From NCBI GenBank assembly GCA_035550055.1, contig DASZRO010000073.1, positions 1 to 32,877 of the forward strand: a DNA stretch of 32,877 nt, read 5' to 3'. Shown in pieces: positions 30,559 to 32,877 of the stretch. The notes beneath the pieces are model-generated. The model did not search any database. It saw only the letters and a list, made by a program, of their open reading frames with translations, and had not been told where the DNA came from. Position 1 is the first letter of the stretch; the number at the start of each line of letters is the position of its first letter. The position numbers and the translations under genes are program-made. The stretch is from Mycobacteriales bacterium. Its GTDB lineage: Bacteria > Actinomycetota > Actinomycetes > JAFAQI01.

Positions 30559-31260
30559 CTAACCCTTGCGGTAGGCCAGATCGACGATCGGACGTTGCGC
30601 GGCGATGCCCCGTCGCTCGAACCGGGTCAGCGGGCGAGCGTCGTAGCGCTCGGTCACCCCGCCGGACAGCAGCGGCTCGGCGTCGAGCACCTCCTGCATC
30701 TGTACGGCGTAGTGCGGCCAGTCGGTGGCGAGCCGCCAGACGCCGCCGGGCGCTAGTCGAGACGCTGCCAGGGCGGCGAACGCGGGCCCGACCAGCCGTC
30801 GTTTGTGGTGGCGCGGCTTCGGCCACGGGTCGGGGAAGAAGGTCCAGAGCTCCTCGATCGACGACGGCGCGACGATGTGCTCGAGACACCAGGCGGCGTC
30901 GAGCGTCGAGAGCCGGACGTTGGCAGGCTGCGGACCGGACAGGGCGGCAAGGCAGGCCGCATGCCCTGGCTGCCAGACCTCGAAGCCGACGACGTTCCAG
31001 TCGGGGCGCGCCACCGCCAGCGCGAGGAGTGACTCGCCGACCCCGAAGCCGATCTCCACCGCGAGGGGCGCTGCGCGGTCGAAGGCGTCGGTGATCCTGA
31101 AGCCCTCGACGGTCTGGGTCGCGGGCGGGAGCACGTAGCGCTCGGCGCCGGCATCCCACGCGCGCTGCTGGGCTTCGGTCAGCCGGGTGCCCCGCCGGCG
31201 GTAGCTGCGGATCCGGTAGGCCTCGGTCGGTCGTGCGGGGGCTGCTCCGACCGGTTCCAC
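30559..31260 (-). CDS. trmB: tRNA (guanine-N7-)-methyltransferase
   Basis: Methylates G46 in the tRNA variable loop using S-adenosylmethionine. It has 233 residues. The SAM-binding motif is VEIGFGVGESL (68-78), followed by the family signature FFPDPWPKPRHHKRR and WRLATDWPHYA. The C-terminus RPLTRFERRGIAA is typical. The GTG start at 31260 has TAGCAT 6 nt upstream, so the transcript is probably leaderless. The promoter region contains a FadR-type palindrome. Confidence 0.96.
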   Translation of the reverse strand: MEPVGAAPARPTEAYRIRSYRRRGTRLTEAQQRAWDAGAERYVLPPATQTVEGFRITDAFDRAAPLAVEIGFGVGESLLALAVARPDWNVVGFEVWQPGHAACLAALSGPQPANVRLSTLDAAWCLEHIVAPSSIEELWTFFPDPWPKPRHHKRRLVGPAFAALAASRLAPGGVWRLATDWPHYAVQMQEVLDAEPLLSGGVTERYDARPLTRFERRGIAAQRPIVDLAYRKG

Positions 31261-31266
31261 ATCTCG

Positions 31267-31296
31267 ATGCTACGTGTGACCTACCTCACTGGTCCA
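31267..31296 (-). promoter_or_regulatory. Leaderless promoter of trmB
   Basis: On the minus strand TGGACC (31291-31296) and TAGCAT (31267-31272) have an 18-nt spacer, and the -10 lies 6 nt before the GTG. The -35 falls entirely inside the palindrome at 31288-31302. Confidence 0.55.
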
Positions 31297-31302
31297 ACCA
31301 GT
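31288..31302. promoter_or_regulatory. FadR/GntR-type operator palindrome
   Basis: ACTGGT-CCA-ACCAGT is a perfect 15-bp inverted repeat and contains TGGTnnnACCA, fitting the TNGTNNNACNA pattern of FadR-subfamily GntR operators. It lies between two divergent promoters, covers the trmB -35 and touches the desaturase -35. A FadR-type gene is the second gene of the rightward operon, so autoregulation is likely. Confidence 0.75.
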
Positions 31303-31331
31303 AGACCAGCACGGTCGCTCAGTCGTAGGGT
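31302..31331 (+). promoter_or_regulatory. Leaderless promoter of the desaturase-gntR operon
   Basis: TAGACC (31302-31307) and TAGGGT (31326-31331) are spaced by 18 nt. The -10 lies 7 nt before the ATG at 31339. The -35 begins at the last base of the operator palindrome. Confidence 0.55.
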
Positions 31332-31338
31332 GCGTCCC

Positions 31339-32193
31339 ATGAGCCCTGGAACGGCGGTGCTGCTGGCCGCGATCCCGATGTTCGTGATCCTGCTCGCGGT
31401 CGAGGCGCTGTCCTTCCGGTTCGACCCGGACGAGGACATGCGGGGCTACTACTGGCGCGACAGTGTGGCGAGCGTGTCGATGGGCTTCGGGTTCCTGGTC
31501 ATCGAAGTCGGCTGGAAGATCGTGTCGCTCGCGGCGTACGTCGGGGTCTACGAGCTGACGCCACTGCGGTTGTCGCCGCACGACTGGTGGACCTGGGTCG
31601 CGCTCTTCTTCGCCGACGACTTCGTCTACTACTGGTATCACCGGGCGCACCACGAGATCCGCGTGTTGTGGGCCAGCCACGTGGTCCATCACTCGAGCGA
31701 GCGCTACAACCTCTCGACGGCGCTGCGCCAGACCTGGACCCCGTTCACGGTGGTCCCGTTCTACGTGCCGCTCGCCGCGATCGGCATCCCGCCGTGGATG
31801 ATCCTGCTCGAGCAGTCGGTCAGCCTAATCTACCAGTTCTGGATCCACACCGAGCGGATCGGCAAGCTCCCGCGCTGGTTCGAGTACGTCTGGAACACCC
31901 CGTCGCACCACCGGGTGCACCACGGCTCCAACGCGGCCTACCTCGACCGCAACTACGGCGGCATCCTGATCATTTGGGACCGGCTGTTCGCCACCTTCAC
32001 CGCCGAAGCCGAGCGGGTCCGTTACGGGCTGACCAAGAACATCTCGACCTACAACCCACTGCGGGTCGCCTTCCACGAGTACGCCGCGATCTGGTCTGAC
32101 GTCGCCGGCGCCCGGCGGCTGCGCGACCGGCTTGCACACCTCACCCGCGGACCGGGGTGGGCACCGGCACACGTCGAGCTCGCCGTCCGATGA
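31339..32193 (+). CDS. Sterol desaturase / fatty acid hydroxylase superfamily protein
   Basis: A 284-residue integral membrane di-iron enzyme. Hydrophobic segments lie at about 5-22, 46-70, 84-98 and 131-168. The histidine clusters are complete: HRAHH (101-105), HVVHH (114-118), HTER (about 170) and HHRVHH (190-195), as needed for a di-iron site. The superfamily hydroxylates or desaturates fatty acids, sterols and carotenoids; the substrate here is unknown. The ATG at 31339 fits the leaderless promoter. The stop overlaps the gntR ATG (ATGA). The FadR-type neighbour suggests control by fatty acyl-CoA. Confidence 0.93.
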   Translation: MSPGTAVLLAAIPMFVILLAVEALSFRFDPDEDMRGYYWRDSVASVSMGFGFLVIEVGWKIVSLAAYVGVYELTPLRLSPHDWWTWVALFFADDFVYYWYHRAHHEIRVLWASHVVHHSSERYNLSTALRQTWTPFTVVPFYVPLAAIGIPPWMILLEQSVSLIYQFWIHTERIGKLPRWFEYVWNTPSHHRVHHGSNAAYLDRNYGGILIIWDRLFATFTAEAERVRYGLTKNISTYNPLRVAFHEYAAIWSDVAGARRLRDRLAHLTRGPGWAPAHVELAVR

Positions 32194-32877
32194 CCGCCTC
32201 TGGCGGTGCCGTCGTGTTCGCGCCGGTCGCGCGGGCGTCGGTGTCCGACGACGTCTACCGGCAGCTCAGAGACGCGATCGTCGGGGGAGCGGTCGAAGGC
32301 GGCTCGCCACTGGCCGGGGAGCGGGCCCTCGCGGAGCAGTTCGGCGTCAACCGCCACGCGGTCCGCGAAGCGATCCGCCGACTCGAGCAGGCGAAGCTGG
32401 TCGAGGTCAGCCACGGTGGTGCGACCCGGGTACTCGACTGGCGCACCAGCGCCGGGCTCGAGCTCCTGGCCGAGCTCGGCGCCTCCGGCGACGTCACCCC
32501 CGCGGAGCTGATCAGGTCCGTGGTCGAGATGCGGCTGGCGGTCGGGGTCGATGCCGCGAGGCTGGCCGCCCGACGCATCTCCAAGCCTGCCGCCGACGAG
32601 CTCCTGCGCCACGTCAGCGACCTGCAGGAGCGTGACCCGGCGCCAGAGGTCGGCGAGCTCGCCGTCGCCTACGACGCGCTGTGGCGGCTGATCGTCGCGG
32701 CCTCCGGGAACATCGCCTACCAGCTCGCCGACAACTCGCTGGTCGAGGCGTTGCAGCGGATGCCCGAGCTGGCGCTTGCGCTCTCCGAGCCGGAGATCAC
32801 CGACCTGGCGACGCAACGTGAGCTGGTCGCCGCGATCGCTGCTGGCTCGCAGGACGAGGCGGTGCGACTGGCGACGA
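32190..32877 (+). CDS. FadR/GntR family transcriptional regulator (partial, runs off the window)
   Basis: At least 229 residues are present and the C-terminus is outside the window. The winged helix-turn-helix spans about 17-85 (DDVYRQLRDAIVGG, GERALAEQFGVNRHAVREAI), typical of the GntR family. The C-terminal helical FCD-like domain follows from about 100. The family metal-binding D..FH position reads AYDALWRLIVAASGN, without the histidine, as in acyl-CoA-binding FadR rather than metal-binding members. It is coupled to the desaturase by ATGA overlap. A matching palindrome lies at the head of the operon. Confidence 0.92.
   Translation, partial: MTASGGAVVFAPVARASVSDDVYRQLRDAIVGGAVEGGSPLAGERALAEQFGVNRHAVREAIRRLEQAKLVEVSHGGATRVLDWRTSAGLELLAELGASGDVTPAELIRSVVEMRLAVGVDAARLAARRISKPAADELLRHVSDLQERDPAPEVGELAVAYDALWRLIVAASGNIAYQLADNSLVEALQRMPELALALSEPEITDLATQRELVAAIAAGSQDEAVRLAT

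Follow-up and report, generated by a model that had tools for sequence, protein, structure and literature searches.

A perfect palindrome lies in the short gap between trmB and a divergently oriented gene for a membrane enzyme, raising the question of which genes it serves. The first-pass annotation took it for a shared FadR-type operator through which lipid status would control both neighbours. Our analysis of the window (the whole stretch of DNA examined, 32,877 nucleotides; Table 1) indicates that the palindrome very likely serves a two-gene operon as its autoregulatory operator; the two genes encode a membrane hydroxylase/monooxygenase of lipids and the operon's own regulator, a member of the GntR/FadR subfamily. 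This reading is built on the conservation of the site, its position, its co-occurrence with the operon and its single copy in the genome.

Table 1. Features of the trmB-hydroxylase-regulator locus (window coordinates)
Feature	Position	Strand	Remark
trmB, tRNA (guanine46-N7)-methyltransferase	30559..31260	-	divergent neighbour, most likely outside the system
-10 of trmB, TAGCAT	31267..31272	-	6 nt before GTG
Candidate GntR/FadR-type operator, ACTGGT-CCA-ACCAGT	31288..31302	+	perfect palindrome
-35-like element of the hydroxylase-regulator operon, TAGACC	31302..31307	+	putative role; first base shared with the operator
Third half-site, GACCAG	31304..31309	+	direct repeat of the right arm; overlaps the -35; conserved together with the operator
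-10 of the rightward operon, TAGGGT	31326..31331	+	leaderless; 18 nt separate it from the -35 and 7 nt from the ATG
Membrane enzyme of the FA_hydroxylase superfamily, 284 aa	31339..32193	+	AGMO-like residue pattern
GntR/FadR-subfamily regulator (wHTH + FCD)	32190..32877	+	gene truncated at the contig end, with 229 aa visible

The gap, its promoters and the palindrome

The gap (31261-31338) lies between the GTG of trmB, at 31260 on the minus strand, and the ATG at 31339 that starts the membrane-enzyme gene; these start codons confirm the previously given size of 78 bp. The palindrome described there is present; from its centre, the hydroxylase start is 44 bp away on one side and the inferred trmB start 35 bp away on the other. 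Its full sequence has no second exact match anywhere in the genome of 3.5 Mb, and the core TGGTNNNACCA occurs once in the window (0.23 expected; 0.0005 expected in the gap). Perfect 6-3-6 palindromes of any sequence number 39 in the window (0.04 expected in the gap), and because they are so common, conservation weighs more than symmetry. That abundance would favour a functionless chance inverted repeat, but given the tiny expectation for this specific motif in the gap and its retention in about 17 loci over several families, such an origin is extremely improbable.

The palindrome had been described as abutting the -35 of the rightward promoter, but its final T is also the first base of this -35, which reads TAGACC in the window and TTGACC in most relatives. 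An 18-nt spacer, earlier assigned to both promoters, separates TAGACC from TAGGGT; for trmB, the minus-strand TTGGAC (31297-31292) stands 19 nt from the -10, and a spacer of 18 nt requires the reading TGGACC instead. Moreover, TTGGAC corresponds to the operator core on the complementary strand and is found in nearly every relative whatever the neighbour. The palindrome thus does overlap the -35 proposed for trmB, but that element is simply the operator core read backwards.

The placement of the -10 boxes 6-7 nt before the start codons stands for both promoters. The motif TANNNT was detected in the 40 nt upstream of 7 of the 22 window starts checked (20140, 21673, 23324, 25393, 28714, 31260 and 31339), each time at a distance of 6 or 7 nt from the start codon; leaderless promoters therefore seem routine here. 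The -10 motif of Mycobacterium tuberculosis is likewise TANNNT; a -35 motif was not identified in that species, and leaderless genes make up about a quarter of those with a primary start site (PMC3898074). A scan with the sigma-70 consensus, uninformative for such leaderless promoters, passed neither promoter and found no terminator. A predicted leaderless promoter for the rightward operon is supported by where its elements lie and by comparable spacing among the relatives.

A TGTGA(C/T)C-type element is located directly upstream of the operator in the window (31274-31287) and also in loci L165, L161, L163, L021 and L022, and may be the site of a second protein.

Conservation of the probable operator with the hydroxylase-regulator operon

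Relatives of the hydroxylase were collected by protein search, those of the regulator by a separate protein search covering 394 genomes of the class, and a class-wide pattern scan, blind to proteins, provided a third sampling. Several loci were picked by the pattern, and every one of them was recovered by protein search too; start codons of some homologues were assigned by inspection. Among the 17 aligned actinobacterial loci of this regulator, the operator is identical in 13 and the TGGTNNNACCA core is retained in 15. The same alignment delineates a 22-bp block, ACTGGTCCAACCAGT-TGACCAG (columns 0 to +21), with about 1-2 bits per column and flanks mostly below 0.7. The last seven bases of the block comprise the -35 element and the third half-site, and some columns past the palindrome owe their conservation to the -35 and not to contacts with the regulator.

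The site follows the gene pair. Of the 12 genomes from the regulator search that encode both regulator and hydroxylase, 10 have TGGTNNNACCA immediately before the operon, and the remaining two (G159 and G064) have degenerate sites at the same place; TGGTNNNACCA also precedes the operon in loci of Mycobacterium, Mycolicibacterium, Antrihabitans and Nocardia. In the pattern scan, all eight fetched ACTGGTCCAACCAGT sites, that is, those with the CCA spacer and with the window's own excluded, directly precede the hydroxylase/regulator pair, whereas no hydroxylase was seen near ten sites with other spacers. Where the hydroxylase occurs without the regulator, ten Amycolatopsis and Streptomyces records included, the site is lacking, with the exception of three stray matches in two other loci. 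In most loci, about 35 bp separate the site from the operon's first gene, whichever gene that is: the hydroxylase in the window and in G003, the regulator in mycobacteria, G196 and G366; in G002, the two genes are divergent. The palindrome is conserved in relatives together with the hydroxylase/regulator pair, and in none of the relatives examined is trmB its neighbour. Counted against the operator model are the two imperfect sites and the window's departure from the -35 hexamer of most relatives.

In the literature searched, we found no description of this regulator/hydroxylase pair with its fixed CCA spacer. An uncharacterised actinobacterial lipid enzyme thus gains a well-supported candidate operator, a clear cognate regulator and a place in a conserved two-gene module, consisting of an AGMO-like (alkylglycerol monooxygenase-like) membrane hydroxylase and a FadR-like regulator.

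The regulator, its predicted binding and the enzyme

The stop codon of the hydroxylase and the start codon of the regulator share a 4-bp ATGA overlap. The window is the entire contig, so that the regulator is visible for 229 residues, which match the GntR (64.9 bits, cut-off 27) and FCD (41.9 bits, cut-off 24.3) profiles; its homologue in G003 is complete. Its domain layout, an N-terminal GntR wHTH followed by a C-terminal domain of the all-helical FCD/FadR_C type, with the helices seen in the structural model, is that of the FadR subfamily, and the earlier label "FadR-type" is right at this level. The same holds for the assignment of the palindrome to the FadR-subfamily operator class, for which the consensus is TKGT-N3-ACMA (PMC4494728): the TGGT and ACCA boxes are 3 nt apart and lie upstream of the regulator's own operon. 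The third half-site also fits this class, in which further weaker boxes occur 7-12 nt away from the site centres (PMC4494728).

The AlphaFold model of the regulator (pLDDT 86.7) has E. coli FadR as its closest solved fold (1e2x/1hw2; Z 15.9 over 205 residues, 23% identity), with several other FCD regulators within one to two Z units of this match. The two proteins share the subfamily and the operator class. However, FadR itself was rejected as an identity, with equivalog scores of 50.3 bits against a cut-off of 249.2 (TIGR02812) and 53.9 against 189 (NF003444), and E. coli FadR controls a fad/fab regulon, unlike the one genome-wide site found here. FadR_C (PF07840) does not match the window protein and matches the homologues L164 and L021 weakly (26.7 and 27.1 against 23.6). 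A metal-binding FCD regulator was also considered and rejected: the metal-ligand His of the D-x-x-x-H segment in the FCD domain, which we take to correspond to position 165 of the regulator, is an invariant Trp (W165) in 15 of 15 aligned proteins. The FadR-like fold, the Trp at the metal-His position and the weak FadR_C matches of the homologues make an acyl-CoA-type or other hydrophobic acyl effector plausible, as far as the model can suggest. The homologues share no more than 39-65% identity, and ligand and sign could therefore differ among them.

The top PDB sequence match of the regulator is a chimera that joins the wHTH of Rv0494 with the ligand domain of E. coli FadR. Rv0494 of M. tuberculosis is an acyl-CoA-responsive FadR-like regulator (PMC5541348) and, like the window protein, an actinobacterial one of FadR type, but its gene context differs, and the comparison is made through the chimera match.

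The operon's own regulator is very probably the cognate binder of the palindrome, judging by the co-variation of recognition helix and operator, the autoregulatory position and the lack of a comparable second site in the genome. Hydroxylase-linked regulators have the recognition helix NRHA(V/I)REA in common; in paralogous regulators (36-40% identical, with no hydroxylase nearby), the helix is SRPAVREA, and ACTGGTCTGACCACT stands before their own genes. A genome-wide search for a second site with the extended pattern and up to 3 mismatches gave 14 matches, against 47 for the control, none of them comparable; a search of the whole genome for a wider regulon with up to 2 mismatches gave 106 matches where the reversed control gave 337, so that no wider regulon was callable. 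Binding by a different GntR regulator of the genome would be compatible with TGGTNNNACCA being a generic FadR-subfamily motif (PMC4494728) and with the occurrence of exact ACTGGTNNNACCAGT sites with other spacers elsewhere in other genomes. This alternative is nonetheless very unlikely, as the CCA-spacer site tracks this particular regulator across gene orders and families, and the paralogues with a changed recognition helix carry a changed site.

The paralogous GntR subfamily, represented in mycobacteria and relatives (L193-L207), has the conserved operator ACTGGTCTGACCACT, followed by TTGACC.

In the proposed mechanism, a dimer of the operon's own regulator would most likely bind ACTGGTCCAACCAGT, possibly assisted by the adjacent half-site GACCAG. 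With the -35 region of the operon's leaderless promoter covered in this way, both genes would be repressed; release of the dimer is predicted to come from a ligand, probably a hydrophobic compound of acyl or lipid type.

The membrane enzyme, previously called a desaturase, is better read as a hydroxylase/monooxygenase: its family match is Pfam FA_hydroxylase (99.5 bits against a cut-off of 31), and the His motifs are conserved. It shares the FA_hydroxylase motif with alkylglycerol monooxygenase (AGMO/TMEM195) and reproduces the spacings E-Q (25), Q-H (39) and D-W (10) of residues reported as essential in AGMO (positions from PMC3617469), but has an H-D spacing of 33 instead of 32. The pterin-type Glu beside the second His is present in the window enzyme (E106) but is not kept in its mycobacterial homologues, which have Thr, and is Arg in the G366 homologues. 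We found no PTPS gene in the genome, which encodes one Pterin_4a protein. The variation of the Glu and the missing PTPS gene weaken the reading as a pterin-dependent ether-lipid monooxygenase; the enzyme may plausibly be a monooxygenase acting on ether lipids or on other lipids.

The position of trmB

The trmB product scores 118.0 bits against the TrmB equivalog cut-off of 112.65 (TIGR00091). The link of trmB to the operator could be of the kind first proposed, a true divergon in which the same regulator represses the hydroxylase operon and trmB, tying lipid status to tRNA m7G46 methylation. FadR-subfamily regulators frequently control divergons (PMC4494728), and here the operator centre would fall inside the RNA polymerase footprint at the inferred trmB start, so that both promoters could be blocked. 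However, trmB adjoins the operator in none of the relatives, among all hydroxylase or regulator loci examined, and TGGTNNNACCA is absent within about 1.5 kb on either side of all 14 trmB homologues in relatives. In relatives as here, the asymmetric CCA spacer is oriented to the hydroxylase operon; the putative trmB -35 is accounted for by the operator sequence itself.

The nearest relative with all three genes, G003, also speaks against the divergon. Its trmB is on a different contig from the operon, with no operator, and has its own -10 (TAGCGT, 7 nt before GTG) and an RCC1-repeat-like neighbour, whereas the operon is preceded by a histidine-phosphatase-like frame of the same orientation (both labels come from reading the sequence). 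The divergon is thus unlikely, and we consider it equally unlikely that in this lineage a relocated hydroxylase-regulator operon has captured trmB into one, such that the lipid-responsive repressor would also tune m7G46 methylation.

Because the operator follows the hydroxylase/regulator pair and trmB adjoins it only in this genome, the proposed wiring of lipid status to trmB is not upheld. From the sequence comparisons, the divergent position of trmB appears most likely to be an accident of gene order, which is the simplest explanation for the surprising-looking link to tRNA modification. The leaderless -10 of trmB would be enough to account for its promoter. Local steric repression of trmB by the operator-bound regulator is possible in this genome alone; nothing points to selection for such interference at the trmB promoter.

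Among the genomes of the same genus, family and order (G001-G012), trmB was found only in G003, and the gene appears to be patchily distributed in this family.
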